Assembly (NCBI GenBank): GCA_963971425.1
Contig: OZ020516.1
Location: 35,762,199 to 35,826,198 of the forward strand
Direction: 5' to 3'
Source: Bryoerythrophyllum caledonicum
Taxonomy: Eukaryota > Streptophyta > Bryopsida > Pottiales > Pottiaceae
DNA length: 64,000 bases
Positions 1 to 64,000 of this stretch are shown one piece after another. The position numbers and the translations under genes were made by a program. The number at the start of each line of letters is the position of its first letter. The first letter of the stretch is position 1. The notes beneath the pieces are model-generated. The model was given only the letters and a program-made list of their open reading frames with translations, had not been told where the DNA came from and did no database searches.

Positions 1-3000
1 ACCAGTTCCTTGAAGAGGTAAAAATGATTCTTGAGTATATTTGATATTTCATTTGAAGTGATACACCTACATAGAGTGATTATTCAAAATAATTTCTCTT
101 CTTATATTTTCAGATTATAAAGCATTGGAGTTCGAATTCAAAGCTTGAGATGACTTTGGATAAGTTACAGTTGATTGCAACTTCCAATGTCCCACCCCAT
201 TTCAAAGTTCGATGGCTTCAGTGGTGGAATTCTAGCAATGCCACTAGGGAAGCTCTCCACTTTCCTCCGAAAGGATTCAGCTATAAGGAGTTAGACTTGT
301 GGTTAAACAAGGCATCCTTTTGGGCCAGAGTAAGTTCTGTTTAGCAAATTTCTTTATTTCTGTGAATTTAGTTCATCATATTTTGGAATCAGTTCGTTCA
401 TAAAATGCTTTCAACCCAGTTGAGCAAGTTAATGTTGCAAAATTTGATCATTGTAGCTTGAAGTCGCCGTCACTGAGGAGTTTGAGAGTGTACTTATAGC
501 CGACAAGCTGCCGCTGAAGTTGGACCTACCGGAGAGACCTCGATCTCCACAAGAGTATGTGGAGGCATCGAGGGTTAAACTTTGGGTGCATGCCTTTCCA
601 ACACTCTTAAGAAGCAAGACCACATTCTCAAGGTCAAAGGAATTTAAGAACCACAAGAATATTGACTTGGCTGTGAAGCGAGTTGTTTGGAGGTGAGAGG
701 GGTATTTTAGTGATATCAATTACAAATCATTGCCTTTAATTTATTTATCTAAATGTGTTATTGCAACTTACACGTATTATATGAAAGAGCTCTTTGTTAA
801 GGGTGCCCTTGAAAGACATCAGCTTCCATTGTTTCTTCAGACATGGATTGATAAAAATTCATCGCATTGTATGTTCACTCCTACTCAGCTTCAATCGTGG
901 TCAACTTTGTATTTAAATGATGGATGTTGGTATCTCGATTGCACGAAGCCTTTTTGTCCATCTGAGGAGGAAGCGGCAAAGGCTTCTCATGACAAATCCG
1001 AGGTATCTGGAGTGGTTGGTGCCACCACTCAAACCACTGTTGACCTCAGTGATGAGGATATGGACACCGCTGGCGGGAGTACATTATCTGGGAAAGAGCA
1101 GTTGAAGGTCCTTTCTAAGCGCGCCAAGGAGGCTGAGAGAGAAGATCAAAGGAAAAAAAAAGAAGTAAGGCGGGCTATGGAGAAAGCTCGAAGGGCTGCC
1201 GAATTGGCTACTGCGAAGGCAAAGGAGGCAGAGGCAAAGGCAGTAGCTCTTGGCTCAGCAAGATCTGGCACTCTAGGAGATAGCCCCTCAACTGTTGGTG
1301 TGAGTCCAACCTCCTCAGATTCTTTACCTTGTCTGCATTTGAAGCGAGATGCTACATTTGCAGGGCTATCAATGTCACGGTTGGTTCAAGGTATTTCCCA
1401 TGCACTTAAAGACATTGTGCAAGATACACAATTTGTTGATGAGTGCATTATTAATGCCTCGCTGATGTCCATTGATGCACACCTTTCCAAGTTCAAGTCT
1501 TTTCCATCGGCATGGACAAACTTGCGGGCCTTCGTCGATAAGGTACTTTATTTTCATTATTTCTGTTATATTTTTGTCCATTCATTAATTGATAGTCAAT
1601 CTAATTACTATTTTTATTCCAGCACAAGCTTGATCGCCCTCGACATTTCTCAGGTCGTCCAGAGAAGACTTTTGGTGTTGATTTGATGGTTGTGGATATT
1701 CCGGAGAACTTGCCAGTTCCAAATATTTCCACGTCTATTCCGGCGTGGAATGTTTTGGATGAGAGCTTTGTGGATTTGATTTTTGACTTTGCCAACAATC
1801 ACATTCATGACGATGGCGGCTTACTTCTCTTTCATGCTGATGATCAAAGTCTGAACTCCAAGTTGAAGGGCTTTATGAGAGCTTATCATTTCAAGATTTT
1901 CAAGGAGTGGATGGGTGTCAATCGGTTGCGTTTGACAAGTGCCAAGGATCCATCAAAAACTGTAAGTATCCTAAATTATATAGTTTTTTAATCCTTCTAT
2001 TTGGATTTTAAATGTTATTAGTCAGTTCGTTTTTTAATGTTTTTTTCTTTGCAGACACTTCGATTTTGCATCAAGTTGTTACTTCAAAATATCCCGAACT
2101 CCGCACCGTCTTTGTTTTCTTTGAAACCAGTTGACGAGTTGGAGGCTGTTGAAATCAACATCGTGGCTGATGATGTGCTGCACAATTTTGTTACAAAAGA
2201 CTCACAGCTTATTCGGGACACTATTCCATAGAGAGGAGCACGGGAGAAGGACCCCATTCTTCTTCAGATGCTTATTGAAGCAAGTACTCATGTTGGAGAC
2301 ATTATGCTGGATTGTACTGCTTCAACTGGTATGTTGTCATTTCGTTACTTATTCTGATATAAACTCTTAGGTGTAGTTGGGATGTTTTCTCTAATTCATC
2401 TAACTGGCATTTTAATTTACAGGTGCCTCCATTCATGCTTGTCGTAAGGCCGGTCGCCATGTTGCGGCGTTAGAGGATGATGGAGAGATTTTTAACTCTA
2501 TTTTGCAGCCGCTTGTTGTCCGAAGGGTGAGCGACGGCTTGAAGAAGCAACGCATTCATGCAGGGCAGACAAGTGCTGATGATGATGAGGAGCTCATAGA
2601 GGACGACGAGCCTATGATCGATATTGTTCCACGAAACCGATTCTGTGCGTAAGTCTTGCATCTTGAATTTTAGTTATTAGACTAACCATTTTTCATGTAA
2701 TTTTTGTATATTTTTCTGATCTTCATTTGGTTTTGTGAATTTTGTTTCAACAGCTCACGTGTGAGGACACCTAGAGATCGACAACGCATCCTTTCTGATC
2801 GTTTTTTTTTTACTCCGGAGAAGCCGTTTCACTTACCAGTGTATGCAGAGGCGCTGGCTCAAGCATCTTTATTCACCTCGCCAACTTTTATCGCTCCTTC
2901 TGGCTTCACTGGAGATCCTAGAGTACTAGAATTTATGGATGTGTCAGCTGTAGAAGATGTTCTGGTTCTACAGCCTTCTATTGTGAGTGGAGATGTGAGT

Positions 3001-3102
3001 TGTGATTACTCTTCGCAGTCTTCTAGTATGAGTTCATTATCTCCTCATGAATCTATTACTACTTTCGTCGACGGCACTTCAACTTCATCTTCTTCTAGGT
3101 AG
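1..3102 (+). pseudogene. N4/N6 DNA methyltransferase-like gene, copy 1 (5' end outside window, one in-frame stop)
   Basis: Eight exons can be followed at 1-17, 114-329, 457-692, 774-1542, 1623-1961, 2055-2328, 2423-2648 and 2754-3102, and phases match at every junction. The encoded order is an N-terminal helical region (M-T-L-D-K-L start near 150), a long Lys/Glu/Ala coiled coil (about 1105-1255), then a region resembling beta-order amino-methyltransferases. There D-I-P-E-N (1692-1706) sits where D-P-P-Y is expected, and G-D-I-M-L-D-C-T-A-S-T-G (2295-2424, split by an intron) sits where the F-x-G-x-G SAM loop is expected, followed by R-K-A-G-R-H-V-A-A-L-E. Both catalytic motifs are degenerate, so methyl transfer is doubtful. 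A TAG at 2229-2231 interrupts exon 6, probably from a Trp codon, and the frame is open on both sides. The intron before exon 4 seems to end in AC instead of AG. The family call is an inference from motif order; a homology search would decide it. Confidence 0.6.
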
Positions 3103-4858: not shown

Positions 4859-7800
4859 GAGCCTAAATGTCAATTTTAGTTTTTTTTCTAAAATTTATAG
4901 CTTAAAAGAGTTAAAATAACTAAAAAAGTAGTTAGTTAATAGTAAAAGTTAAGAGAAACTTTTAAAATAAGTGAAAAAACTTAAAATAGCCTAAAGGAAA
5001 TAATGCTAGTATGAAAGGACTTAAAGAAAAGACTAAAAGAATAGTCACACCTTTTAATTAGTTGAAAGGGTTTAAGCAAAACTTGAAGGGGTGGAAGGAA
5101 AAGGAAGAAACCTTTTAAGAAATAGTGTCTCTTCATAGTTTTAGCTTAAGTGGAGTAGGAATTCATTTTGAATTCACCACATTGAAGAAGCAATTGTGAG
5201 TCCTAGCTTGGAGCTAGCAATTCTTGCGATGGTTGTAAGAATTTTTAAGCTAATACATATTGTGTTGTATAAAATTGTATTGATTCTAATTGATTAAGCA
5301 ACTTTGCACATGTGACTTGTGAAAGTGAGTCTTAATAATTAAGAAGTCGAATTTTAATTGATTGTAATATCTTAAATTGATAAACAGTTTAAGAAGATTT
5401 AATGTTGCACTTATTGAATAAGTAACATTGAAAGAAAATAAAACATATTCAAAAAACTAAAAATATTTGTGACTAAGAATTATTATAATAATAATTGAAT
5501 TACAAGATAAGAGTTCTTATATTTGAAGTGCATTAATTAATCTTAAGGAATTAATTGCATTAAAGGGAGTCATGTTGTTTTAGAAGAATGCAATTACTTT
5601 GAGTTTAAGAATAATGTATAGTGGATTAAATCAAAGGAATTAAATTTGATTGAAAGTGAATGTGTTAGAGTATAGATCTAAAAAAGAATCATTCTTAAAC
5701 TTCTAACAAGTGTGATTGTTTAAGTTAATGTGTTTGGATGTGGAATCCACTTGGAGTTTTAAGAGATTAGTAACCGAACAAAGCAATGAGTTAAGCAATG
5801 GATAAATTCCGTTCGCCTAACAAGGCATAGTTAGAGGTTTGGGCACACACACAAGAAAGACAAAGAGCAAGGCTCTTGTCGCAATCATTCTTCTTCTTGG
5901 GTTAATATAAAAATTCCCAATCCTTAAAAAGTGTAGATTTTTTAACCCAAAACCTGTAAAAGAATGCATTATAACTTTAAGTTTTATTATAGAAGACATT
6001 TTTTATGAGATAATTAGATTAAATTACCTAAACACTAGACGCTAGATCATCCCGGGAAGAATTTAGAATCATGTAGAGACTTGTCTGAATCTTGGGTGTT
6101 TTGCGAATGTGAATTTTACGGTTTACAAAGTGCAAGTGGTGATCCAAGTACAAGTACTACCAGTAGAGCCGAAGGAAGTAGTTCTGGCGAGGCGGAAGGT
6201 AGTGCGATTTTAGAATGGAGAGGGGCACGGGGAGCATAGGCAAATAGAGTGAAAGATGAAGGCATAGTGTATGTTGCGGCATCCTCAAAAGCAATACAAG
6301 GACATCTCAAAAGCTTGGAATTCTTTTACTGTAGCTCACTTTGAAACACCGTAAAGTCTTTGTTTATAAAAATCTTTGTTTATTCATTTGTCTTTTAATT
6401 TCCTCAATTTTTGAGAACTCAATATTCCAAATAATTTGAGTTGCCAACATGCAACGCGCAGCCCCCATGAGCGCGCGCATGCAAGCAACTAATGTTGGAT
6501 ATGCCGCGCTCGACCGTGGGGCGCGCACGACCTTCAATGCACGCGCCCAACCAATTGGGGCACGTGCATGGTCCATGTTGGTACGAACCCCGCCTTGATT
6601 TGTACGTGCCCGATGGTCTTGATAGTAAATGTTCACCATATTTATCTAGTAAATGTTGAAATGTCATTGGAGAACGTGAAGAACATATCTAAAGATTGGT
6701 TTGCACGGTTTACAGTAATTATTGGGAAAAAAACATTTATATTTTATATCTATTATCGTGCAGAAAAACATGATTTGTAACCTGACTAGATACTATTGGT
6801 ACGAGATCCTACCCGGACAATATCCTATGTGGATTTGGAAGCACTAGCAGGTGCATACCCTGAAAAGGCATTGCAAATACCTGGAACATCGTCCATAAGC
6901 ATACACGGATCTTGATGTGAAGGAGGGCGTGGGGGTCGCGAAGCAACTTTGGGCGACAACTCAAGTGAAACAAACCCTAGTGCAAATCTAGGTGGAAGTA
7001 GCAAATATTCAAATGATAACTTTCAAGTTTAAAGTAGAAAAAGGTTTTATGTGAACAACAATTGGACATGAATTAGTCGATCATAAGAGATGGGGTGGAC
7101 TAATTGTATCAATGGCGCCATGCACACCATGTAACATATGAGAATCAAGTTGATCAATATTTCCAAACCGAGACATGGCAGTTGGGGTGACGCGGCTCAA
7201 TTAGAGACGCCAGCAAGGGCCACAAGAAGAATTTACGTTTCTTTTTATAGGCCTGCCTACCTTGCAATCAGAGTTCTTGGAGATAGGATCCTGCGGCTGA
7301 TCAAGCACCGCATGTCTTGCTAATACTTATCTCGCCCGGACGTTCTCATAATCGGAGCACGTCTCCAATGTGAACAGCCTCCAGTCGATAGACCACGCCT
7401 TATTTGGCATCCAACTTTAAGATTTTTGATGAAATGAATGTATTGGAGTGTGTGGAGATGGTTCTAACAATTGTTTATCCTAAATTCACCCAACCGTTAG
7501 CCTTTAAAATCAATGCAAGGGAGGTCAATTTTGCATAACCACCCATGCCTTGTAGGCAAGGCCTTCTAAACCGCCTAGATAGATCCTGGTACATTTCTCC
7601 CTCTACGCTTCGTGATATGCTTGAATTAAGCTGCTAGTGACTTATGAATATGCCTCAACTCTACTTGCTTGAAGATTCAATGCCTGCTACTCTCTAAACT
7701 CCTCCCAACAAAGATTAACTAGTTAGGTGTTGTTCCTTGCACGTCCATTTTGATCACTGAAAAGCAATCTAGGTCACCATAGAGGCAACCAAATCCATGC

Positions 7801-12599: not shown

Positions 12600-15504
12600 C
12601 TATGATCGCAATGCACTTCCATTGCTTGCTTCAGGTAGGATAGTGAGCCGCCTGACTGCTGTGACGAAGCTCCTGCCAATTCAAACTTAAGCGTTAGTAA
12701 ACGACGGGTAGAGCACAAATGAAGCATTGATAGTGTGAAATATTGAATACTAGAATATCAAGTGATTCATCAGATTGTCTGTACAGTACCTCTTCAACAC
12801 ATTTGAACATAGAAAGTAGAGCAGATGTCGTTCAGACATACCTGTACGGCTCTGCACCAACATGCTTAGTGGAGCCCTCAGCATTCTGATATACCAGCCG
12901 ATTCTTGAAATCTGGAATAGGAACACTGAACATGCCTGCCAGGCGGTCATAAACTTCATCGTACGAGTGGAAGTTGGAAAGGTCCAGGGTCCTTCCCACT
13001 TCATCGCCCTCCTTGAACACTTTGCAATGATGAAGTGGTTCATTCAAACCTTTGTCCCTGTCACTCCCTTGGTCTTTGAACCACTTCAAACTACCCACCT
13101 CGCTGCCAATCGAGAGGTCAGACCAGTGGCCACTGTCGTTCTGTCTATACCGCGACATAGCTCCATCTCCCGTCACTCCAGAAACCCCATTGTGGCCGGG
13201 CTGGAACCGCCTCATCCTGTCCTTGTTCTCCAAGGTGTTGTCCGAGGATGAGTTACTGGTGGTCGAAACGCGCAGGCCATCGTGAAGAAAGGGTCCATCT
13301 GAGGAGCTGTTTCCAGACGTGACACACTGCTGCTGCGGCTGCTGCTGCTGCTGCTGCGGTTTCGAGTTGCTGGTGGGATCAATGGACTGGCCGAACAGGA
13401 AAAACGAGGTCGAGGTGGTCTTGGTAGCAGTGTTCTCTCCCTGGGAGTTGCCAGACGGCAGGAAACCCACTGTGTGACTGCTCACCGAATGCTGCGAGCG
13501 GTGCTGCCCGTTGGGCAGCAGTGAGAAGTGGTGGTTGTTACCAGAGGGTGAGTCACTCAAGAGGTTGCGAGCAGGAGGAACCTGCTCGTTGTAATAGTTA
13601 TCGCTAGGATACTCTCGAGGATGTTTGTAATTACTGTTCCGGAAATCCATGGTTAGAAGCCCGTTAAAGCGATCATGCCTGGCTCCCTGCATGCCTGCAG
13701 AGACGTCGTCTAAGAGTGCAGGGCCCCCCCATGGGGCAGGCAACTGTCCCGAAAAGGTGCTGGAGCCTGCCAACGGCAAGCCAAGCAACCCAGGTGCCTG
13801 CAGCTGCAATTCCTGAGGCTGCACAGCACGCAGTTTCTTTTTGGGCAAAGAGAAGGGGGGCAACTGCATTGGCAGGGTGGCAACGAGCTCCACCTGCCAG
13901 GGACTCACACGACTCACACCCTGCAGTAGGTCTGGCTCGTCCCATGTAACCTGCAATTATAACCCTCCCGGTCAGCACATGCGTTCAACGAAGTATGTAG
14001 GATGCAACATCCATACTACATTCAATACACCACTTGCGGTGGAACTCAAACGATGATGAGCATACCTGTAAAACGCGCCATGGAGAATTGGGCCAAAGGA
14101 GGGGATCAGCCGGCTGAACTGCAGCAATTGTTCCCATAAACCAACTGATCCTGGAAGAGTCCTCTGTCTCAAACGCCATCTTGAAACGCATCCCTGCATA
14201 CCATGTGTGATCTAGGGCCTGCTTCACCGAAGCAGCTTTCACACAAAACTCTGCTGTGCTAGCACGTGGGTAATACACAACCTCGAACGGCTTCCCAGCA
14301 ACAGCAAGCGTAGCAGCCTCTAGAACAGATTTTGCAGTGACGCGGGCACGATTACGTGCAAAACTACTCGTTGTTGATGGACCCTGACTGCCAGGCCGAA
14401 CCCCGTTGTTCAATCCGCCATGGCCATTGTCACCAACTCCACCAAAGAAATCTGAAAAACTCTCGGTACCCTTCACCTCCCAGCGTGAGGCCCGCATAGC
14501 TGAAGTTGCGCTTGCTGACGAGTGCCAGGTAGAAGTATCCCCACCACTGGTACCCCGCATTGAACGACGCACGCCTACGCAGAGCTCCCCCGAAGCACTG
14601 CGCAGAAACACAATTGCATCTCCAGCCACTAGCTTCTTCTGATTCACAAAAGTGCTCCATCCGGTCGTCAAAAGATGTCGCCTGGGAGTTCCCCTGCACA
14701 AGCAAAACCAGGAACATATACATGAGAACCTTCTTCATTGTTGTCCAAGTAACAAGATGCATGCAGCAGCAAACAATGTTTGAAGCCTTACCTGTAAATA
14801 TGCCGAAACTTCCAGACATCTCCATGGACATCCTTCGCCAACACAGTTTGCACAGGAGGGTCCGTGGAGTAGTCCAGAGGAGGGAAGATGGTTTCAGCAC
14901 AATAGCGCGGAACAGAAAACCCGCCACCATTGTTTGCATCACTCTGCGTCAGCGTCTTGGCAAAAGAAGCTGGTTTCTCCGGAGGTGGAGAAGGAGGAGA
15001 ATCGTCTAGGAGATCATTCGAGAAAGGGAGACCCTCCGGCTGCAAGCGAATCCGTGCAAACACCTCGTCTGTTTCCGTATCCGCTAGAAAGTTGACTGAA
15101 ACGACCCGGCAAGGTATAGTCCCCAATGGACCCAATGATCCGGGAAAATCAGGAATCGTCGCAGCTTGCTCTGCATGTCCTTGAGGGAAGTAGATAACCT
15201 TGGCACCCACGGGCGGGAGCTGAACCATACCGCCTGCACAGGCATGCCACAGCTGCGCATCCAGACGCCCCATGCTCTCTTCCCCTCCCATGCCTCTATC
15301 CCGTCCTCCAGTATCATCGTGCTTCTCCATTTTGACACTCATCGATAATCGAGGGCCTGGCCCGGGCATTCCAAACCAGGACACGGGGAATTCTGGGGGC
15401 GCAATTGCGACTGGTTTTAAACTTAGTCCAAGCTGTTGATGTGCGTCTCTGTGCTCTGTGCCGGACTCTGCAACAGTCACAGCGGCCGCCGCCCTAGACA
15501 GCAT
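12600..15504 (-). CDS. ARF: auxin response factor, class C (ARF10/16/17 type)
   Basis: The CDS joins 15504-14792, 14693-14066, 13950-12842 and 12672-12600, giving 840 residues. Introns of 98, 115 and 169 bases all have GT-AG ends and keep frame. This is a nuclear transcription factor that binds auxin response elements; class C members act mainly as repressors. Residues 81-110 hold the dimerisation flank (L-W-H-A-C-A-G-G). The B3 DNA-binding domain covers about 180-282, with [10 protein letters not shown] and [14 protein letters not shown]. The ARF ancillary domain runs about 360-470 (W-D-E-P-D-L-L-Q). The middle region is Gln/Ser-rich with F-L-F-G-Q-S-I (631-637) and a poly-Gln tract (646-655). 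A C-terminal PB1 domain lies at 756-831. The start at 15504 is the first in-frame Met; Met55 or Met59 are plausible because class C proteins usually have short N-termini. The miR160 site in exon 3 supports class C. No disruption is seen. Confidence 0.93.
13676..13696 (-). promoter_or_regulatory. miR160 target site in the ARF mRNA
   Basis: The plus strand here reads TGCCTGGCTCCCTGCATGCC plus one base, which matches the conserved plant miR160 at 19 of 21 positions (differences at positions 15 and 21). The ARF mRNA is therefore nearly complementary, with a perfect match across the cleavage position. The site encodes M-Q-G-A-R-H (residues 534-539), the usual location in ARF10/16/17 genes. Post-transcriptional cleavage by miR160 is expected from established knowledge of this family. 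Confidence 0.92.
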
Positions 15505-22384: not shown

Positions 22385-23395
22385 CTACCAACGTGTATGT
22401 CCTCCATTAGCGTCAATCACTGCTAGTAACCTAGTGGGCATAGAATGACATAGTTGAAGGAGCTTTGTACCATTGACTAACTTCCACTCTCTTTCAAGAA
22501 CTACCTTCAACACATCTAAGCTTCTAGGGCATTGTTTGCCATGTTGCACAACATCTTTTAACATCCTCCAAACATTCTCGATTGGATTGAGATCGGGAGA
22601 GTTTGTAGGCGAGTTGAGCTTTTCGAGAAGGTGGCTTTGTCTCCATTCTTCACATATTTTGCTCCTATGGACGGGTGCCCCATCTTCCATAAGCACTCCT
22701 TGTGGAATTTGATCCATGAAATGAACCAATCTGGCATCGTAAACCACTTCTATAAAATCCTTAGCAGAACGTTGACCTTTAGGCATAAAGACAAGTTCTG
22801 ACTTTTGTCCTCCGGCAAATGCGCCCCAAATCATTAAAGAAGTCCTTCCACTTTTAAAAGTAGGAGCTAGACAACTTGATGAATAACGCTCGTATGCACT
22901 TCTCCAAACATGAATTTGCCGAGAATTTTTTCCAATTTCAAAAGTAGATTCATCTGTCCAAACAACACGCTCCCACTCTTTTGCACTCCATCCACGGTAC
23001 TTCTGAGCAAAAGCTAATCGTTGAGACATGTGACGAGGTGTCAAAAAAGATTTTTTGACTGCAATTCAACTAAAAATGCCATTTTTATGTAAGACCCTTT
23101 TAATAGTATGTCTACACACTTGAGTAGGACATGCATTGGTAATCTCTGAGAGTGAAGAGCAACGATGAATTTTTGAGTAATGGACAATACTACGAACATC
23201 TCTATCACTAAGCTTTTTAGCGTGACTTCCACCGCAAGGTTTGCGCTTGTAGGTTCCATCTTCTCTAAATGTTTTTACTAACCTTGTAACTGTTCTAATA
23301 GGAACTCCAATAGTAGCTGCAATTTGAACTCCTGTAAATCCTCCCTCACTCAAACCTATGATGCGAGCACGAATTTCATTTGAAATTGCCATCAT
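22385..23395 (-). pseudogene. Tc1-type DD34E transposase, one in-frame stop
   Basis: A 337-codon frame runs from ATG 23395 to TAG 22385-22387, broken only by TGA at 23066-23068. The N-terminal third is a paired-like helix-turn-helix (I-R-A-R-I-I-G-L-S-E-G-G), which binds the element ends. The catalytic part shows W-T-D-E-S-T, E-D-G-A-P-V-H and N-S-P-D-L-N-P-I-E-N-V-W. There are 34 residues between the second Asp and the Glu, the Tc1 DD34E signature, so all three catalytic residues are present. The stop codon falls inside the inner edge of the left inverted repeat. The second Tc1 transposase in the window (51824-52837) has Cys where this copy has TGA, so the stop is probably a point mutation. 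It acts in the nucleus on its own element. Confidence 0.85.
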
Positions 23396-51798: not shown

Positions 51799-53308
51799 CA
51801 GTAAAATGGAACACCTACTACCATCAAGTGCTACCACTTTGAGCTGCTATTACAGCTTTCATCCGGTTTGGCATTGTTGAAATCAACTTCTTGATGCTTT
51901 CTTGAGGTATATCCTCCCAAGCCAAATTGACTGATGTCCACATTTCATCTTTGTTTCGTGGTCTATTTCTCTGTTGCACTTGATCTTTAACTTGCTTCCA
52001 GACATTCTGTATAGGATTAAAGTCAGGAGAATTTGGTGGCCATTCAAGCTTTTTCAATCCAAGTTGCTCTCTCCAATCTTTTTGTATATTACAACCATGT
52101 ACTGGAGCACCATCCTCTATTAAAATGAGGTGCTCATAGTGGTCATGGTGCCAATAATAATGCTCTAATGCTCCTTGAGATACTATCTCTACAAAGTGTT
52201 TGGCACTACGTCTATTAGGAGGAATTAACACCAAATAAGACTTAGAAGAGCCAGTGATAGCACCCCATACCATAATCGAAGTCCTTCCGGATTTGAATGT
52301 AGGTGCTAAGCAATTGTAGTTGTAGCGTACATGTGATTTTCGCCAGACACAAATTTGGCGTGATGGTTTTTCAACTTCAAAGGATGACTCATCGGTCTAA
52401 ATCACATTACTCCAATCGTCAATTGTCCAATGCAAGTGCTCCTTTGCAAAAGCCAACCTCTTTGCCTTGTGTATGTCACTCAAAAATGGTTTTTTCAGTG
52501 CAATGCAATTGATAACACCAAGCTCATGAAGCTCTTTACGTAAAGTTGACATGCCCACGGAAGATGTCACATTGCTGCACAATTCTGCAAGAGGAGGACG
52601 ACGATTACTACTAAGATCTCTATGGAGCTTTCTCCTATCTCGATCACTCATGTTTCGCGGCCTACCGGACCTACTTGCTGGCAATACAAGGCCACTAATT
52701 CTAAATCGCTTGAGAATCCTTGAAATAGTCGATTTTGGCCTTCCTACAATGTTTCCAATTTCACTCACTAACATGCCAGCTTTCTGCATACCAACTATCA
52801 TGTGTCGTATATCATTTGATACATAACTCCTTGTCATGGTGCATAATCTTCAAACAACACTTACATCCACAAAAAGTTTGATAAAAAAGGTCCTAACAAC
52901 AACACAGAAACGATATGTTTGTCAAACAAGACTTGTTGCACACAATTTTTCTAAGAAATGTGTACCATCAAGATGACTTGCAAACATGTATGTGTATCTC
53001 TGGACCCTCCCAAGCTCAAACATACTCAAAATCTGATATCCCAGAGAAGAAGTGATCACATTAAGAAGGGTACCCTTTTCCAAGATTTTTAAGCATGATG
53101 GCAATTTTGGTAGACACATGGCAATGGATTCCTCTTTATATTTAGAAAATGCATGGTGTATGAAGGTAACTGGAACACCTTCCATGATTCAAAAAATCTT
53201 ATGGAGATGTGATGATTATCATGCCAACACCATCATTCTAAATCAGGCCATGGAATATGTTTTAAGTGAAAAAACAGAGTGTGTTGCAACACTTGTTACA
53301 GGGTACTG
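51799..53308 (-). mobile_element. Tc1/mariner element, second copy (approximate ends)
   Basis: A TA at 51797-51798 precedes CAGTAAAATGG, and a TA at 53309-53310 follows GGGTACTG. These give weak inverted ends (CAGTA shared, then partial), so the boundaries are tentative. The transposase frame lies inside on the minus strand. LINE coding resumes right after 53310. The AT-rich 51300-51796 stretch may be part of another insertion. Confidence 0.5.
51824..52837 (-). pseudogene. Tc1-type transposase with stop and lost catalytic Glu
   Basis: A 338-codon frame runs from ATG 52837 to 51824, broken only by TAG at 52397-52399, exactly where W-T-D-E-S needs Trp. Helix-turn-helix segments occupy the N-terminal third. 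Catalytic motifs are T-D-E-S-S-F, E-D-G-A-P-V-H and S-P-D-F-N-P-I-Q-N-V-W. The third catalytic residue is Gln in place of Glu, so the protein would be inactive even if the stop were read through. It is about as related to the other Tc1 transposase as different families usually are; both share V-x-W-G-A and A-P-T-F-K-S-G-R-T-S. Confidence 0.85.
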
Positions 53309-53850: not shown

Positions 53851-56800
53851 ATTTCATAAATACATTTGACTCAATTGACTACAGAAGGCTATTAGCAATT
53901 ATGTCTGACCTCGGATACCCCAACAACGCTGTTGCATCAGTTGGAAACATCTACTCTTACTCTCTACTTCATACGCTGGAGAATATTTCGGAACAACCCA
54001 CTCCATCCCCATACAACGAGGAACTATACAAAGTGCTATTTTAACCCATTTTTTTCATTATTTCCTTAGAACCACTACAAAGATGGATGCAACGGGGAAA
54101 TAACGGATACACCTTCGGAACAAAGCTTACTTTATCCTTGCCAACTATGGTGGTGCTAAAAACATTCCTCGAATAAACAAAGCCGATTGCTTTAGATCAT
54201 CAATTACCCCTACATTCTTTTTACTAAAAAACAAAGCAAAAGCCTACCTTAAGAGCACATTTACGGACTTTCTCTTAGAACCCTCAGCTTTGGAGAAAAT
54301 ATGGCTACATGAAACCCAAAATGACACAAGAATTAACCAACGTCTTTTCCAAAAACTCCTACAAAAACTCCTCTAGGTAAATATTATTGACTTAAAACAA
54401 ATCACATTACTAAACGGAACACACATCATGAGTCACAATGACTTCAAAACATTTCATGCTACACCATCCAAATTAGTAAAAGTCGCTCTTAACATTGCCC
54501 AACTACTTTTTTGCTACCCCCCATGCACTAACACATGCGCCTCTCTATGCACCATACACCCAAACCCCTACACACTTAGAGACACATACGTCACCACCAA
54601 CAACAACATACATCCCATAAACAACTCGTCACCAACCCACCCCCACTGCATCCACTCCTACCTCTCCCCTACACACATCCTCAAAAACCCATCCCCATAT
54701 TCCATAAATCTCATTCTTGACCATAAACATAGAAAACATATGGACTCAAATACAATTATAAAAAATGACTCCAAATATCTATGCCAATGGCAACACAACA
54801 ACACTACCTACAACAAATGGTTACCCCAACAAAACCTCTTTCCATGGCATGACCAAAACATCTCCACCCATAATTCCACACAATCAAAACAATACTATCT
54901 AAACATTCAAAACAAATACTACTTAGAAATCATCCAAACACACCACCTCCAAGAGCAATCTTGTGATTCAAGATTTGTTATCCCACCCATAGTCATTCCC
55001 TTCCTCAACATATACACAATTGAATGCAACCCCGAAAAAGACATCCTCGCATCAAAAAATACAATTAAAATTAATGAAGACCTCGCACATATATACAAAG
55101 ACAATGGAAGACATCTAATCACTATTTCCGCTGCTAGACTTCAATGACTTTGGAACCAATACCATAACAAATTACAAAGTCCCACAAAAATAGAACCAAC
55201 AATCCAACCATTCAAAACTGAAGTAGCATGGCTATACCAAAGAAACAAATACCACATCCCAAAAAATGACCCCCCTCAAACTTGCACAATACACATGATC
55301 CATGCTTATTTTAGACTCACTAATCTCATCCTTCAACCTCGAACATTCGTACTTCTTAGCTCTTATCACCTGCCCCATCCAACTCAATAAATATCATTCA
55401 CCCTTCAAAAGAGACAAAATCTTTGGCTCACTAGGTAATGCCTTTGACCACAAATGGATTGGAAATGATATTGCACACCTCCACAAAGCAGAAGAAATGC
55501 AACCAGCAATACATTGGGCAAGACTTGTACCCAAAAATGACCCAAAATACACTTCCACCCTTATTATCACACCTGTCACGGGACGTGGCGTCGAGGACCT
55601 CTCCACATCGTAGTGTTTTAGCGTAGATTAGTTTGTTACAAATCCACGGGTTTAGAGACATACGGCGGCGCACCACATTCATCCGTGAATGTTTTCCATC
55701 CACTCAGGGTTGTGTGTGTGTATAGTGCCGCACATGTCCTTGACTTGACATCTTGGTCAAGTCAAGTTTTGTGAGTGAGTTAGAGAGTATTTAATGATTA
55801 CCTTTGCTTGTAAGTGATTGTTTATCATTAGTAAAGGCTCCGCATTTTCTTATACTACTTGCACTAGTTCATTCTTCCTTTGTGGAGTGCAAGACGCTTG
55901 ACACCCTAGTGATTCATTAGTTATTCACTTGACAAAGACGTATTCGAATTTATCTTATTTTTCCACTATTTTTGCATTTGAAGAGTTGTACAAAAATGGA
56001 AAGAGTAGAAGAAGAGTGGGTTGCAAATTAAAGGTTGTGTTAGTACTAGTCTTATAGGTATTTGAAGAGTGAAGTTGGGTTGTTTCAACTTTATGTTTTG
56101 GAGAAAAGTTGTTTTGGAGAAGCAGAGTGCGGAAGTCAGCAAGATAAGCACAATTTTTCATCTCCTACGTTCTCATCCACTGCGACGGAATAGCAAGGCA
56201 ACATACATCCAGGAAGGACTGCTAGGGTGGTTGACTTGAACATGGTGGAGGCCCGTAAGAGGACAATCCATCGGACTACGGAATTATGGGATTGATATAA
56301 TCCAATTTGAGGACAAGACTGTAAGGAGCATGCGGCGGAGCCCACAGGTGGCGCGATTGACTGCCTGACGGGGACAACTGAGGTCAAGTGCTTGTACGCA
56401 CGGGCTTAAGGATTCCTCAAGGGGACGCAACTTCAAGCCGACGGGCAAGAGGTTCCAAACTCAATTTCGATAGATACCTAGAATTTCCACAGGTACCTTA
56501 TCCCATGCCGCAACACCTAGAACCGTGTATTTTGAGCTCCAAATTTCAGGATTCCTTGGAGTTGATGCTTCAAAAGCTCGACTTTTGGAGTTTTAGTCAT
56601 TTTGCAATTCCGACTTCCGATTTGAATTTGTGGAAAAAATCTAAGACTACTAGAGTAAAAATTTGCTAGTTTAAAAAAAAAATATGCTAGTTTTCAAGAT
56701 GTCGGTGAACAATCACATGTTTATGGGACCTTAAATTTTTTTTTTTGAAGTTAGTGCTAAATTTTGGGAATAGATTACAAGGGCATTGTTACCCGGATGT

Positions 56801-57392
56801 GAGTGACATTTATTCTCCTACTTAGGGTTTCCGCCATTTGATCTAATTTGAGTGTTCGTTTGACGTTTGTCGTGATTATCCACCAATGTATGTGATTTCA
56901 TTGGAGGGTTAGTGTATTTGAACACCGAGGTCAATCTCCACTACTTTCTTAGTTTTAGACGTTGGGGGGAAACACTTATTAGTGTTTCTCTTTGTATTGT
57001 TGGTTTGCAACTCGAGCCATTCACTGCACGCGTGTGCCAGTGGCTCTGATCCCTTGTCTTTCCTGTTTTTATATTGTTGGAGGAGAGGATTCGGTTTTGA
57101 TTTTTGGATTCTTGTGCGGTACCTCCTCCGTGTTGCGGGCCTTGCTACCGGAGTTTCTTGGTGGCCCCGTTTTTGTTATATCTAGGTTGTGATAGGATAA
57201 CGTAGGGATAAAGTCGGGTTCATGGCCAGCAAGACCTTTCTATGTGAGGAATTGTCGTTGGACTTGTAGTAGCCGGAGGTGATGGCCGGTGAAACACAAA
57301 GTTTAGTGATTTTGTAGGTACAGGTTGTCCGATCGTACCCTTATCCTTTGAATAGTACCTGTAGATAGATTTCGAGCTGGTTGTTCTATATT

Positions 57393-58600
57393 ATGAATAC
57401 CCGGAGTCGGTATTTCTGCTCCCCTCCACCGGACTACCCCGAGAGAGCTTCCACCGTAGACTTTGGGCCAGGGTCGGATACCGACTTGGCTTTTGAGCCT
57501 ATTTCGGCATTGGATACCAGCCGTAGGCTTTGGATCTGCGGCGTCGGCACGTTTGATGACATGGAGGACAATCTCCATCATGTCGTGGGAGACAGGTTCT
57601 CGAGACGGGATGGGGACATATCCCTGCCTGATTGGCGGCTTTGATTTCAGACCTGGAATAAGGAGAAGCTCTAGCAGATGCTGTCATTGAGGAGTATTGG
57701 CGCTAGCTTGTGGAGTTGGTGATTGCGCTCAAGGAGAATGCGGTTACCCAACTCTCGACTTTCACCGAGGAGGCCAAGGTGGAAGAGAGCTTTCTCAGTG
57801 AGGACTAAAGGGCCGAGGGTGTTGTCGTTGTGGCCGAACGGTATGGCATGGGAGCCATGTCACGTTTAGGTGTTACAACACGTGCGACATTGATGGCGGT
57901 TGCCGATCCGCTAGCCTTTAATCCTTTGGTGCAATTTATGATGCACTTGGAGGTGGAGTACGGAGGGTTCAAGTGTGATCACATGCAGCGCATCCAGGAT
58001 TTTGGCCGAGAGAACAACGATATCCCTCACACTATGTATACTCGGTTGGCACGGTTGTCAACGGAGGATCGTGATGTGTTCACGGAGCGCCAGCTTGTGA
58101 AGATCTTCATTTCAAAGCTGGATAAGCGGATGGTGGATAAGCGGATTAGTTCGCATCTTCTTTTTTGGTATCACGGGTACGTGACTTTGGCAAAGACATT
58201 TGCTGAGGTAGAGGCGCTTAATAGAGAGCTGGGCATCAGAGAGACCACAGATTTGGTCACGGCTCTAATGGACACTTCTAAGCCAAGAATCTTGCTACCG
58301 CGACCGATAGTACGGTGGAAGCACAATCTAAAAAGGTTGTGCATTGTTGGACTTGTGGAGGGCGGGTCACACCAAAGAGGACCCCAATTGCTCTAAGAAG
58401 ATGCGAACTAATCCGCTTTGAAGGCCAAGCCCAAGACAAAGACAACCAAGCTTGTAGAGAAGGCTAAGGGAAAGGGGAAGAAGCCTGTGACATGTTCTCA
58501 TTGTGGCAAGACTAGCCACAATATTGAGAACTATTTTTCTCTTCACCTTGAGAAGCACTCAGGGTTATCGCTTGCTTGATTGGATGTTGTGAAGACACTT
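57393..58600 (+). pseudogene. gag: gag with two CCHC zinc knuckles, decayed
   Basis: ATG 57393 begins M-N-T-R-S-R-Y-F-C-S-P-P-P. Frameshifts and stops occur near 57640-57810, and an open 188-codon stretch at 57830-58396 reads as a helical capsid-like domain (F-N-P-L-V-Q-F-M-M-H). A first knuckle near 58342-58392 reads C-W-T-C-G then, one frame over, G-H-T-K-E-D-P-N-C. A second at 58493-58537 reads C-S-H-C-G-K-T-S-H-N-I-E-N-Y, with the last Cys lost. Gag packages the RNA intermediate. Confidence 0.7.
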
Positions 58601-60065
58601 TAGGCCAAAATGGCGGAGCTGAAGAATCAGATGAGCGCGATGGCTTCTCTGGGACAAGTGGCCGACACACAACCTCCAGTGAGAAGTCAGGGCTCATCTT
58701 CAGCCCTAGATTGCTATTTTTATGGCGCTTCAGGGGACGTGGTGGCAGTAGTTGCCACTCGTGCTCAAACTATTGCACAGGCGGTGACAACATCTCCCTC
58801 TATGCCAGGTGGTAGTGGCCGTCCACGCTACACGGGTTTGCGGGGCGACATTGGTCAGTCCCGGTTACCTCTTTGTATCTGCATCGCGGATGCGGCGACT
58901 TCTACTGCCGCTCAAACTCCGACCTTGGTTCCACCCATTTCATCCACTCGTAGGGATGCCGCACACACATTGGCGTATACGGTGTTGCAGTTGCCGGTGT
59001 TTGTTGGTGTGGACTTTCTGACACCAGATTTTCAACCATCCGGTGTATTCGTCTTGGCGGGTAGTATGTTGGAGGGCAAGGTGCCTATGCCATTGTTGAA
59101 GGTATTGCAAGCACTGAGCAATGACGGCTCCACCCACCAAGGAGGAATTTGGTAGCATTGCGGGCAAAGTTGGCGGCGGAGGCTATTTCCGCATGTGAAG
59201 CTAACGCCACGTTCACACCTATTGAGCAGTCTTCCGAAGACCAGTCATTGATCTCTGGAGTGACTTATCTCTCTGACGTACAACCCAATTGGCACGGGAG
59301 CGACGTAGTGTGCGTCCATGGATGGTACGTTTGGTGAATGACGATGCAGTCATGGTCGTTGGCCGTACGGACGTCAACCCCACTTGTGCTATCTCCCTAT
59401 GTGATATTTTAGACTTTGGAACTGAGCAGCTGAGCTTGTGATGATTGGCAATCAGCTAGCCCAGAATTTGGATCTAGGTGCTTCGGGCCTTGAGCCTTGC
59501 CCGTTTACGATTGTTACATCTGTGGGGGCACGGAGAAGGTCATGGGCTACTCCCGACATCTATTGCAGTTGATGATCGCTCTTGGATCCGGTCCATTGTT
59601 CTTCCATACATCTCTCTAGTATCCTATGAGTGGTGCCACCAGCTACGATATTCAGGTGGGTCAACATGCATCTTATCCTCTCGGTTTTGGGATAGATAGC
59701 TAGACAGAGGAAGCCTTGATTAGGCCTGGGTGGTTTGTCGGTGATGGCAGAAAGGAGCTTATTTCCATTATCTTCACAGCTAGCGCGGCAACTTCTACGG
59801 CGAATGCTATATTGGGATAAAATGCTTTAACATCCAATTTGCCATGTGGCTCTACGTTTTTGGAGGAGACGTATGCTTTTATGTCGAGGATAGCGGAATC
59901 ACCTAAGCATAGACCAGTGGAGATCCCTGCACGTCATTGCATGGATCCACTCCTTGGGGGACTCAGTTGGAACTGACTCGTCGCAGTCGGGAGATTTTGG
60001 ACGCTCTTGATGCTCCACAACTTTAAAAGTGGATACTTCCACTCCGCTGCTGGCTTGCATATTCA
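58601..60065 (+). pseudogene. gag-pol linker with probable protease remains
   Basis: 58610-59155 is open and reads T-L-A-Y-T-V-L-Q-L-P-V-F-V-G-V-D-F near 58970, then several frames broken by stops to 60030. A retroviral aspartic protease is expected here by position. I did not find an unambiguous D-[ST]-G, so the call rests on order alone. Confidence 0.4.
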
Positions 60066-61127
60066 GTGGCAACCACCATTGTAGGTATTATCTTCGTGGA
60101 GCTATTTTTCGGTATTGGTACGGAGCTCGCAGTTGTGTTAGAGGCATGCCTCAAGAAACAACGATTCATCCACGTGGATAGAGACTTTGCAGCCAACCGT
60201 ACCGGTCACCATGATATTCAATGTCTTTTGGAGTTGTATTCGGAACGGTTATCATCTTCAACGATTCGAGGGTGTTTTGGCAAGTTGCTATGTGATGTGA
60301 CGTTGATGAGTGAGGATGATGTGCGCCAGTTTGGTCACGTGGACTTAGTGATTGCCAGATGGCCTTTGCAAGGCCATTCACGAGCGGGCAGTGCACGTGG
60401 CTTGCATGATCCACAGTTGAGGCTCTTTGCGTATTTGCTTAGGCTCATATAGTGGAGGACTACCCACCAATCAACGCCACCGGGGTACATTTTTGAAAAT
60501 GTATCCCTATTGGGAGATACACGGACAAAGGTGCGTGAGGATGGGGCATACATCCATCACCTTCTTGGGCCCCCCACTTTTGTTGATACCGCGGCGTTGG
60601 GCTCTTATGCCCATTGGCCACCTTGGATTCGGACCAACATGGCAACACCGGTGACGCTCACCTCTCCGCTTGTTCAAATGCAACAGCCCGTGCACCGTGA
60701 CGTTGATGACATCTTGGACGAACATTGTGTTTTCACGGAGGTTACCAAGAATGATGAGCCACCATTGGCGGTAGTGAATTGTGTTGGTTTCACTCCGGAG
60801 GCATTTCCCACATTGATATGCTACCCGGGATCTTTTGCCTTTAGGACACGCGGTCCGAGCATGGTTTGGAATTCTACTTCCCGAAGTTACGAGGAGCCTT
60901 CTGCCAATAAGAGGGAGTGGGCCATGGACTTTTTAATTAGCACCACCTCCGCACCGGATCTCTCTAAGGGCCAGCATTGTTATTTGTTGGATCAAGTTAT
61001 TAACCTCAACATCCTCGTTTGGGTTTGTGGCCTCTGTTTCGCTGTCCAGCGTTGTTTGAAAGACCATCCACGCATGTTGGGGGCAAACTCTGATGGTCAG
61101 GGGGCAGCGGTGCCACATCTTACATAG
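60066..61127 (+). pseudogene. C5 cytosine DNA methyltransferase domain in the retrotransposon
   Basis: A single frame of 354 codons, broken only by TAG at 60450-60452, contains the C5-methyltransferase motifs in order. Motif I is F-V-E-L-F-F-G-I-G (60093-60119), the SAM loop. Motif IV region is V-D-L-V-I-A-R-W-P-L-Q-G-H-S-R-A-G (60339-60389), where the family has P-C-Q. Motif VI is F-E-N-V (60492-60503). A G-S-Y-A-H-W-P-P-W-I segment stands where motif VIII is expected, and a C-terminal helix may correspond to motifs IX-X. The enzyme family methylates cytosine in DNA through the motif IV Cys; here that Cys is Leu (TTG at 60366-60368), so this copy cannot be catalytic. The domain is downstream of gag/protease and upstream of RT in the same transcriptional direction, so it was part of the polyprotein region. 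Capture of such enzymes by gypsy elements has, as I recall, been described in charophyte algae; presence in this plant lineage is notable. Confidence 0.88.
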
Positions 61128-61559
61128 ATCAAAAAAGCGGAGCTGCTTTTTCATTCGAAGAGGAATGCAGCTGAGGAGCTTCGTGCTCAACGTGTCTTTG
61201 TAGTCTTGGCCAAGGACCTTGGTCGAGAGGATGCCTGGGATATCTTTTTGGAGCTTTATTATTACGACACGTGATTTTCTATGAATCCAATGAGTGAGGA
61301 GTCTAGGGGCATCAATGCTCTCTGTGCTACCAAGTAGCAACCACCGGCCGTGCCGGTACACGGTGAGTCTTTTATAGACTACGATGGAGAAGAAGACCAC
61401 GGAGTTTTGATAATTGGCCATTGGATTTGGGGCCACATCTTATCGGTGCGGAGGCACAGAGGGTACGAGTGTTCATACATTTGTATCGTAGTTGTTTTGC
61501 CGTTAGTCTCCATGATTTGGAGGGCTAACGAGGCAAATCGATACACATCCAGTGGAAAG

Positions 61560-62403
61560 ACGACCACCCAATCTTTCGACGACCGTACAAGCTCATTCTT
61601 TCAGAGAAAGTTAGGGTCTAGACTCGTTGTCAGGAGCTGTTGGCGGCCAGCTTCATTGAGCTCTCCAATGGCGAGTACGCTTGTGCCACGGTTATGCCAT
61701 CAAAGAAGGATATCTTTGGCAACTAGATGGAGAAGCGGATGTGTTGGGATTATAGATCGGTCAATTGCAAGACCAAGTCAGATCGGTACCCCATGCCTAC
61801 GGTAGAGGAGTTGTTTGATGCGGTGGGCTATTCTAGAGCATTTGATACTCTAGATTTGCGGTGATGTTACCACCGATTACCATTGATGGTGGATGACTGG
61901 GTGAAGACTGCATTCTAGAGAGTTGATCAAGATGGAAGAGATCAATTTTACCATTGGAAATTTCTCCAATCTGGCCTCAACACCACACCTGTTGAGTTTC
62001 GGAGGATCATGGATCAGGTATTGACTCGTTTACCATTAGCTAATGCTACATTGATGATGTTATGATTTTTAGTAGCAGCCTACAAGAGCATGTGAGGCAT
62101 CTTCAGGCGGTGTTCGAGAGGTTACAATAGTTGGGATTACGCTTGCACCATGGCAAATGCAAGTTCTTCCACAATCGGTTGCCATATTTGGAACTTATGA
62201 TTTTTCCAGGAGGTCTTGGCGTGTAGCTAGCCAAGATGGATGTATTGTAGTAGATTTTTGCCCCAACAGACGTGTCACAGCTTTGAGCTTTTTTTGGCTT
62301 GACGAAGTACCATCACTGATATCACTTTAGCTTGATTGCCAAGCCATAAACTATTCTCAGCGGAAAGGATCAACCATGGATTTAGGGACAAGAGCAGCAG
62401 CAG
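61560..62403 (+). pseudogene. pol: Ty3/gypsy reverse transcriptase, decayed
   Basis: The translation reads C-Q-E-L-L-A-A-S-F-I-E-L-S-N-G-E-Y-A, D-Y-R-S-V-N-C-K-T-K-S-D-R-Y-P-M-P, A-F-D-T-L-D-L-R (motif A), Y-H-W-K-F-L and Y-I-D-D-V-M-I-F-S at about 62043-62070 (catalytic Y-x-D-D). It continues into the connection segment with L-H-H-G-K-C-K-F-F. The catalytic Asp residues are retained, but TAG at 61724, 61916, 62128, 62224, 62248, 62251 and 62383, with two TGA codons, interrupt it. It copied RNA into DNA for the element. Confidence 0.85.
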
Positions 62404-62825
62404 GTGTTTGCTACTTTGAAGATGAATCTTGATTCAGCGCCCGTGTTGCGGCATCTTGATGCTACACAATCCTTTTTGTTAAATACAGATTGGGGTGTTG
62501 TGGGATCGGAGGCTGTGTTGACTCAAAAGGATGATGGCGGACGAGAGTACATTGTCGCGTTTGTTTCTAGGAGCAACAACTCAGAGTCCAACTATTTGTC
62601 CTATGAGGAGGAGACTTTGGCTCCGGTTTGTGCCATAGCCCATTTTAGGCCCTACTTGTATAGACAATTTTTTATGTTGGTGATCGACCATCAGTCTTTG
62701 AAGTAGCTCATAGGCCTGGCAAGCTTAGTGGCTAGCTTGCCAAGTGGGCTTTATTGCTTTAGGAGTATGACTTTGAGATTGTACATCGGGCGGGCATCAC
62801 AAACTTAGATGCGGGTGGTCTATTT
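62404..62825 (+). pseudogene. RNase H domain of gypsy pol
   Basis: 62404-62706 is open and reads L-N-T-D-W-G-V-V-G-S-E-A-V-L-T-Q-K-D-D, then V-A-F-V-S-R-S-N-N, N-Y-L-S-Y-E-E-E-T-L-A, F-R-P-Y-L and D-H-Q-S-L-K. These match the gypsy RNase H consensus, including the first Asp (T-D), the Glu (Y-E-x-E) and the D-H. TAG at 62704 ends the frame, and after a short frameshift E-Y-D-F-E-I-V-H-R-A-G follows at about 62763-62795. Confidence 0.85.
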
Positions 62826-63049
62826 GGCAATCCAAGTCCTTTGGAGGAGGATTTGATTGGTGCGACGTGGCATGGCCAGTGTGACAAAGAGCCAGTTCCG
62901 GGGTGGCATGCAGTGGCTTACCTAACGTTGATGTCTGGCTCCTCATTGACATTGTCTGATTTGGCAACAGATGAGGAACCAGATTGGGCCCAAGTTGTTG
63001 GCGATGTGTGGAAAGACGGTCCACTCTTGCACAAGCTACATCATGGGAC

Positions 63050-64000
63050 ACTTCCCCTAGCTCTTTGTGCTATGGAGCGTAATAGAGTTGGGCACCAAAT
63101 AGCAAGGTTCCGTTGGGAGAACAACCTTCTATTTTCGGTGTGGCCAAATGGGACTAGGTGCATAGTTTAAGGCCATATCAGAGGGCTTCATTGGTACGAC
63201 ACACACACGAAGAGCTAGGACATCTTGGTGTGCGACGGGATCAATCAATGTTGCGCAACTAGTACTAGTGGATCAGCAGGTTGCCATGTATGTTTCTCGG
63301 TGTAAAGTATGTGATCAAAAAAGATCTAGCTTCAATACCTTATCATCCAGTTGCAGCCTTTGCTCATTACGGGGCTAGGATACCACCGGTCTTTCGACTT
63401 TGCTCGTCCACTTGTCGCCACTCCACGCGGAGCCAAGAATGTCTTGGTCATGGTCGAGTATTTCAGCAAGTGGATTGAGCTCGTGGCTCTTCCGCAGAAC
63501 TCTTCAGAGTTGGCGGCCATGACATTCCTTGACCGGCTCGTGGCTTGTTTCAGAGCCCCAGGTGAGGTTTTGACGGATCAAGGGCGTGAGTTCCTTGAGG
63601 CTTTCGAAGCTTTGTATACCAAGGATTTGATTGACCATTGTACCACTTCTCGGAATCACCCGAAAGCGGACAATTTGGAGGAGCCTGTGGTTTAGACCGT
63701 GAAGCGGGGCGTACCTTAGTATGGATTATTTTAGGGTGGCCACCATGATTGGGATCTAATGATACCACGGATTGCCCTGGGATATTGGTTTAGCCGGCAC
63801 GCTTCACTTGTTTTTTTCAATCTGTATCAATTGTTGTACATGCGAGAGCAAATTTTACGGAGTTCTGTTCAGGAAAATTGACTTCGGTTGTGGATTTGGA
63901 CGATCGAGAGGTGTCGGCCTAATGTCTGCGAGACCAAGCGTACTTCTTCAAGCGGGTTATGTTCATGGCCATGGAAAACTTGTCCATCGCTCAACACCAT
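63050..64000 (+). pseudogene. integrase of the gypsy element, decayed and cut by the window edge
   Basis: An H-H-C-C-like zinc domain is shattered between about 63170 and 63330. The core at 63351-63695 reads R-S-F-D-F-A-R-P-L (first Asp), V-L-V-M-V-E-Y-F-S-K-W, L-T-D-Q-G-R-E-F (second Asp) and T-S-R-N-H-P-K-A-D-N-L-E-E (catalytic Glu region). TAG at 63693 and further stops break it. A downstream W-D-L-M-I-P-R-I-A-L-G-Y segment continues toward the window end. The enzyme inserted the cDNA into the genome. Confidence 0.85.

Follow-up and report, generated by a model that had tools for sequence, protein, structure and literature searches.

Retrotransposons with a DNA methyltransferase (DNMT) of the Dnmt3 class have been described in an alga and in dinoflagellates. 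The closest published relative of the element reported here, matched by description and not by sequence, is KnitGypsy-Dnmt3 of the charophyte alga Klebsormidium nitens, for which the available part of the account gives a Gypsy domain set, a Dnmt3-class domain without the DRM rearrangement, a location of that domain in the 'Pol polyprotein ORF' (ORF, open reading frame), a Ka/Ks below 0.2 and, despite the Gypsy domains, DIRS-like split repeats (de Mendoza et al. 2018, PMC5890265 and its Fig. 4 legend). SymbioDIRS-Dnmt3 of Symbiodinium likewise has a Dnmt3-class domain within a retrotransposon and, in the same portion of that source, methylates CG de novo in yeast; self-methylation of retrotranscribed DNA was proposed from the yeast activity of the DIRS-borne enzymes, and the possible benefits raised were that the element escapes being recognized as foreign DNA, is shielded from deamination, or spreads more slowly and with less harm (PMC5890265). 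A 2019 paper held such elements to be absent from land plants.

The stretch analyzed here, called the window throughout, comprises 64,000 nucleotides of the moss Bryoerythrophyllum caledonicum (contig OZ020516.1, positions 35,762,199 to 35,826,198; C3:35762199-35826198 in our numbering of the 437-Mb assembly of 894 contigs). A first-pass annotation made from its letters had proposed a Ty3/Gypsy retrotransposon with an embedded C5 cytosine methyltransferase near its 3' edge, and database relatives, a predicted Dnmt3 fold and a census of the genome bore this out. We assign a probability of about 0.82 to the reading that the window copy belongs to a Ty3/Gypsy-type lineage of a land plant, younger members of which have moved recently, and that this lineage has a Dnmt3-class methyltransferase as a regular part, lying between protease and reverse transcriptase (RT). 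The younger, intact members of the lineage have the order gag, protease, DNMT, UAG, RT, RNase H, integrase and plant homeodomain (PHD) finger, and they are recent insertions.

An exact signature taken from the end of the DNMT and the following stop was found at 135 places in the host genome, the window's own included, against 0 in the control. A search with the protein P0002 scored 101 places of 2,425 candidates, with 61 of the 101 matches free of stops (counted by eye), and a search with the DNA methylase profile PF00145 scored 123 places of 1,055 candidates, among which a second, diverged group (family II) stood beside the group to which the signature belongs (family I). The reverse census, in which 95 RT places were scored of 5,677 candidates and which covers the nearest RT relatives only, gave 69 places with a DNMT match scored at the offset that was expected; 18 of the other 26 were fetched, and a DNMT was present in 16 of these, so that the domain adjoins the RT in 85 of the 95. 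The 8 places that were not fetched have the end-of-DNMT/stop signature where it was expected. Relatives consistently lacking the domain, which the first-pass annotation had named as the sign of a nested host gene, were therefore not what the genome contained.

One relative from outside the host, L001, is a 9,285-base contig with a 127-base terminal overlap and contains one whole unit. Gag, protease and DNMT occupy one frame in L001, followed by TAG, and past the stop this frame continues in phase through RT, RNase H, integrase and a PHD finger (PF00628, E = 4.3e-10); the protease match was below its cut-off (PF13650, E = 7.8e-4, 20.5 bits against 24.3), and frame 2 gave no chromodomain match at E ≤ 0.01. 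The Ty3/Gypsy order of protease, RT, RNase H and rve integrase is present in L001, and RNase H and rve were also matched by Pfam in the window. Chromoviruses of mosses and other plants share with the moss element the order RT-RNase H-integrase and a chromatin-reader-type domain after the integrase; the moss element differs in having a PHD finger in place of the chromodomain, in its DNMT and in its split repeats. In family II, the open frames of L053 and L054 run for 1,360 and 1,371 codons, end in CAA-TAG-CAACCA and are followed by 1,041 in-frame codons; L053 is 64.7% identical to L001 over 1,030 columns of frame 2 and 34.9% over 1,125 columns of frame 1. L001 was the sole close relative in the search of genome contigs, and one scan of viral contigs confirmed no relative. 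A 30%-identical enzyme on a Burkholderiales contig (L002) was set aside as a relative. L001 is filed in a cyanobacterial (Synechococcales) metagenome-assembled genome (MAG), and the protein P0004 in a MAG of Candidatus Obscuribacterales; both are retroelement DNA, probably misbinned eukaryotic sequence, and under these labels they could mislead searches for bacterial methyltransferases.

No gap was needed to align the methyltransferase domain of the window copy (60096-61334) with 31 further copies (30 from the host genome and L001), and nucleotide identity was 82 to 84%. The frame at 60066-61127, which the first-pass annotation had singled out for comparison with PF00145, reached only E = 0.0045 and 16.9 bits, where the curated cut-off is 22, and did so through its N-terminal piece alone; its C-terminal piece gave no PF00145 match. 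A protein search with this frame (X at the stop) listed 10 relatives with E values from 8.6e-154 to 7.3e-58 and identities of 49 to 71%, and 7 of these 10 matched PF00145 above the cut-off, at 41.5 to 49.1 bits. With relatives down to E = 8.6e-154, a chance match was ruled out. C5 methyltransferases are described by conserved motifs, named I, IV and VI among others, and in P0002 these follow the canonical order (I at residues 2 to 8, IV at 90 to 92 and VI at 134 to 136, then the C-terminal motifs). The predicted structure of P0002 had a pLDDT (predicted local distance difference test) of 84.3 and a pTM (predicted template modeling score) of 0.76, and the fold search with this model returned DNMT3 structures in the best 50 of 165 Protein Data Bank (PDB) matches with E ≤ 0.001. 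DNMT3A, 3B and 3C were also the best methyltransferase matches in sequence searches, with the bacterial HaeIII and HhaI weaker. Judged from the model and the alignments, the enzyme of the element is of Dnmt3 type. A DRM-type enzyme was ruled out, as the motifs are not rearranged and DRM is absent from the best 50 fold matches (DRM2 appeared in the sequence search only, at E = 0.18 to 0.19); a bacterial enzyme was ruled out by the motif alignment and by best fold matches that were DNMT3 only.

The ratio of nonsynonymous to synonymous change (dN/dS, by NG86) was calculated over the DNMT of the 30 best-scoring of the 101 host copies. It was 0.20 in the 23 stop-free family I copies (253 pairs), 0.19 in all 30 fetched copies once stop columns were dropped (435 pairs) and 0.12 between host copies and L001, values that point to purifying selection on the DNMT of family I and that resemble the published value for the K. 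nitens element. In a 46-row tree of host copies, L001 and unnamed database proteins, families I and II stood apart, with some long branches. When divergent relatives were aligned in 30 rows, three columns were invariant, one of them the catalytic cysteine. Among further relatives, the site reads PEC instead of PC in P0039, P0040, P0042 and P0044, and WEC or FEC in P0041 and P0043. The placement of the domain also varies in related Gypsy polyproteins, since it lies between RNase H and integrase in P0038 and P0040 and before RT in P0046 (by eye), so that either one captured enzyme has moved within pol or there was more than one capture. A PHD finger is listed in P0038 to P0044, and in neither P0045 nor P0046.

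What is under selection could be something other than DNA methylation. The domain may have been kept to methylate the genomic RNA or the tRNA primer, or as a nucleic-acid-binding part of the particle, and in the available text of PMC5890265 the Gypsy-borne domain of K. nitens gave no methylation in yeast, which its authors called inconclusive, and an RNA role is raised for the LINE-borne type. The canonical motif order and the invariant cysteine speak for a DNA enzyme, yet conservation of the cysteine would be compatible with RNA methylation as well; the best 50 of the 165 fold matches were to DNMT3 and not to the tRNA enzyme DNMT2. We consider such a role unlikely, and more probable than the other alternatives taken up below.

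The boundary between DNMT and RT is marked by an in-frame UAG. UAG followed by CARYYA is the readthrough context of tobamovirus type. The stop was UAG in 99 of the 100 family I places listed (of the 135), the remaining one being TTG (control, 0), and in all 30 fetched host copies of family I, each with CARYYA next to it; 17 of 18 further family II stretches read CAA-TAG-CAAC(C/T)A, and the 18th could not be aligned. As in tobamoviruses, the UAG of the moss element is followed by CAAUCA, CAACCA or CAACUA, with CAA before the stop in family II; unlike theirs, it divides the DNMT and RT of a retrotransposon, and its readthrough is predicted from sequence. The frames on either side are in the same phase in L001, L053 and L054. 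L001 and 24 of 30 family I copies have their first methionine after the UAG at residue 117, L054 has it at residue 82, and families I and II align from residue 13 to 16 after the UAG onward. A separate start in these copies would therefore lose conserved residues, and for that reason passage of a minority of ribosomes through the UAG, from the DNMT frame into the RT frame, is the better reading and a probable one.

In the rival account the UAG merely divides two proteins, the second of which is translated after reinitiation or from an internal start. This account draws on the split of two long frames by a stop in L001 and both families, on early methionines at residue 24 (L053) and at residue 5 or 13 (3 of 30 family I copies), and on two stopless family II copies in which the DNMT continues into the RT: in L056 the stop is replaced by Gln, and L055 has lost the segment containing it. 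Separate initiation may occur in some copies. For the lineage as a whole the in-phase continuation directly past the UAG and the CARYYA context in both families argue against it, and we rate it slightly below a non-DNA role of the enzyme.

The repeats do not follow the usual plan. The search for a single long terminal repeat (LTR) gave a 362-bp repeat A and then a repeat B, and classic LTRs were ruled out. In family I the plan is A1 (about 362 bases, starting TGTCACGGG), the genes, the purine-rich tract AGGGGGGGCA, B1 (about 106 bases), A2 and B2 (ending ACGACA); the element starts with TG, finishes with CA and is bordered by 4-bp target duplications. Nine family I copies were fetched, eight of them with both ends (the L038 stretch is without the 5' end), and the duplications, read from the flanks, were exact in 7 of the 8. 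This plan recurs in the two family II copies that were examined, with A repeats of 367 and 372 bases and the duplications AGGA and CCTC, so that across the two families exact duplications flank 9 of the 10 copies for which both ends were read. A1 and A2 were 98.6 to 99.7% identical in the eight family I copies and 100% identical in 2 of 2 from family II. The B1-A2 junction, ACGACA-GC-TGTCA in two copies, one per family, resembles processed ends joined with two spare bases. DIRS elements have a tyrosine recombinase instead of a DDE integrase and are not known to duplicate their target site. The moss element has DIRS-like split repeats together with a DDE integrase (rve) and 4-bp duplications, by which it differs from DIRS elements and SymbioDIRS-Dnmt3, and membership among the tyrosine-recombinase elements was ruled out on these two grounds (split repeats of DIRS after the Fig. 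4 legend of PMC5890265).

The copy in the window is old and degenerate. It spans 55574-64879, with its 3' end beyond the window edge (coordinate 64879 is L033:3078); it begins with TGTCACGGG at 55574, ends with TTACACGACA and is flanked on either side by CACC, a perfect 4-bp duplication read from the flanks. Its parts are as follows.

55574-64000 within the window, + strand: decayed DNMT-bearing Ty3/Gypsy copy (81.4% identical to L001 across 6,187 columns, 57846-63998)
55574-55917, + strand: A1 terminal repeat block at the 5' end of the element (82.9% over 351 columns against A1 of the host copy L034)
57393-59122, + strand: gag region, frameshifted (tblastn with the L001 gag-protease-DNMT translation; start codon by eye)
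59134-59952, + strand: protease region, frameshifted (aspartyl protease at about 59429-59542)
60096-61334, + strand: Dnmt3-type C5 methyltransferase domain, broken by stops (ungapped alignment to the 31 other copies)
60366-60368, + strand: position of the catalytic Cys of motif IV (PCQ), Leu in the window copy (alignment)
61335-61343, + strand: TAG and CAACCA, the presumed readthrough stop at the DNMT/RT boundary, retained even in this dead copy
61406-62739, + strand: RT/RNase H region, frameshifted (RNase H piece at 62404-62703; PF17919, E = 9.7e-21)
62721-63997, + strand: integrase region, frameshifted (rve within 63351-63692)
L033, about 2490-3078, outside the window and 3' of the integrase: degenerate PHD finger (by eye), polypurine tract and repeat B

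Motifs I (VELFFGIG), IV (RWPLQGHSRAG) and VI (FENV) are present on the + strand within 60066-61127, as the first-pass annotation had read them, but motif IV is degenerate and a TAG at 60450 interrupts the series; the end at 61127 is that of an in-frame stop (61125) and not of the domain, which has another in-frame stop at 61272, three in all. The description of these motifs as lying in one frame between gag/protease and RT holds for the DNMT alone, as gag, protease and pol are all frameshifted and need several other frames (gag matched L001 residues 1 to 93 and 135 to 612 in two different frames by tblastn). Only A1 and one B are retained, A2-B2 being missing (L033, about 2980-3078), and the single B is due either to recombination between B1 and B2 or to integration of a one-unit circle. 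The 30 young copies grouped together with 100% support in an unrooted tree, and both the window copy and L001 fell outside their group.

At the 908 sites invariant in the 31 other copies, the window copy differed at 108, and 65 of the 108 differences were C>T or G>A. By context these were found at 10 of 44 CG sites, 4 of 17 CHG sites, 29 of 270 CHH sites and 22 of 127 sites of unclear context, a pattern that fits long exposure to plant-type methylation, with a CHG count that is small. This decay bears on an origin of the element in a contaminant, an alga or microbe co-assembled with the plant: L001 and P0004 stand under bacterial MAGs and contig C14 contains one bacterial-looking locus, but most of the copies listed sit on contigs of 20 to 65 Mb, the window copy lies about 40 kb from a class-C auxin response factor (ARF) gene, and C-to-T changes that affect CG and CHG sites more than CHH sites are what a long stay in a plant genome that methylates its DNA is expected to leave. 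We regard contamination as very improbable. The weakest alternative, a host methyltransferase gene or fragment brought into one Gypsy copy by nested insertion or transduction, could appeal to the DNMT genes known from plants and to the PF00145 score of the window copy, which alone is under the cut-off, and is rejected because 85 of the 95 RT places scored in the genome have the DNMT beside them, as do L001, the second family and the metagenomic relatives.

In the reading we prefer, a regular DNMT in a Ty3/Gypsy-type lineage, the upstream frame would yield a Gag-protease-DNMT protein that terminates at a UAG in strong readthrough context, and the minority of ribosomes that pass it would add RT, RNase H, integrase and the PHD finger. 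The DNMT would then outnumber RT to a Gag-like degree and be packed into the particle. Its most likely activity would be to methylate the cDNA of the element itself, at integration or earlier, a step to which we give somewhat less than even odds, and the PHD finger may steer integration by the state of histone H3, as is thought for the chromodomains of chromoviruses. The split-repeat form would arise through a circular intermediate, with the DDE integrase cutting at the B|A junction to leave A1-genes-B1-A2-B2 and 4-bp duplications: a circle with two BA units opened at the B|A boundary would result in A-genes-B-A-B, and a one-unit circle, or later recombination between B1 and B2, would result in the A-genes-B form of the window. 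That the Dnmt3-Gypsy lineage has endured and diversified in land plants, makes its DNMT at Gag stoichiometry by programmed readthrough, inserts new copies already methylated and integrates from circles, all together, is possible but doubtful.

Several observations weigh against the preferred reading, apart from the early methionines, the stopless family II copies and the negative yeast result with the K. nitens domain already given. The window copy is dead and cannot make an active enzyme; the suggestion in the first-pass annotation that such an element could mark its own new copies does not apply to it, because its catalytic Cys is lost. Two of the 18 fetched RT neighbors had no DNMT in the 701 bases read (one of them, on C6, has an end-of-DNMT signature about 1.8 kb off the expected place), and in the relative P0037 the DNMT continues into RT without a stop. 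Within one young family a shared stop would follow from descent, so that only the two families, L001 and the metagenomic C-termini argue for selection on the UAG. The eighth family I copy has an inexact duplication, GAGA/GCGA, and no primer-binding site was identified in the element.

One gene of the window was used in judging the host.

12832-15504, - strand: class-C ARF gene, exon pieces (B3 and ARF_AD domains)

The regulation of this gene by miR160, read from the sequence in the first-pass annotation, agrees with a target site for miR160 at 13676-13696 that has 2 mismatches (expected number of sites, 0), and the available text of PMC10721683 describes the module of miR160 and clade C ARFs as conserved from bryophytes to angiosperms. 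MIR160 hairpins gave 10 rows in the genome at 5 distinct places, 2 rows being above the gathering score, and three tandem MIR160-like hairpins, two of them above that score, lie within about 0.6 kb at G000:C9:18349713-18350337. Dynein heavy chains were found above the cut-off in 9 of 10 rows. To our knowledge these chains are absent from angiosperms, conifers and zygnematophyte algae. MIR160, a class-C ARF and dynein heavy chains together point to a land plant whose sperm are flagellate, and genome size, with the desert-crust source that the name of the MAG of L001 suggests, makes a bryophyte probable, most likely a moss. No Dnmt3 gene of the host emerged from the PF00145 search, which was filled by copies of the element, and no other search aimed at one was made.

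Elsewhere in the window, a eukaryotic large-subunit rRNA fragment at 6994-7386 (+ strand, 102.5 bits) was the sole Rfam match at the gathering threshold, and pieces of Tc1/mariner-like transposases occur on the - strand at 51824-52273 (DDE_3), 52397-52837 (HTH_Tnp_Tc3_2) and 22385-23044 (judged by eye from the translation). The bacterial-looking locus on C14, a 22-Mb contig, is a 370-codon C5 methyltransferase (L052, G000:C14:16015000-16018500; PF00145, 218 bits) whose neighboring frames also look bacterial by eye, and it represents misassembly, contamination or transfer.

Among titles and abstract openings, a body of text that leaves most subscription journals outside, no report of a DNMT-bearing Gypsy element in a land plant was found, KnitGypsy was named only in a 2018 paper among the literature matches listed, and the literature search gave no closer precedent for a Gypsy element with a PHD finger, for readthrough in a retrotransposon or for the split repeats. 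Compared with KnitGypsy-Dnmt3, the moss element shares the Gypsy domain set, the unrearranged Dnmt3-class domain and the split repeats; it differs in its land-plant host, in having the DNMT in a Gag-protease-DNMT frame upstream of an in-frame UAG and in its C-terminal PHD finger, the available part of the KnitGypsy-Dnmt3 account being silent on both the UAG and the finger. What is new is the land-plant host, the presence of two families with recent insertions, and a stop in a viral-type readthrough context at the DNMT/RT boundary that places the DNMT in the Gag-protease frame. The 135 family I places, with a family II whose A repeats are identical in two copies, contradict the general form of the 2019 statement of absence, and with them the puzzle of a transposon that carries a transposon-silencing enzyme becomes testable in a plant host rather than in dinoflagellates or an alga. 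If the proposed mechanism is true, an element with a PHD finger would determine its landing site as well as its epigenetic state on arrival.
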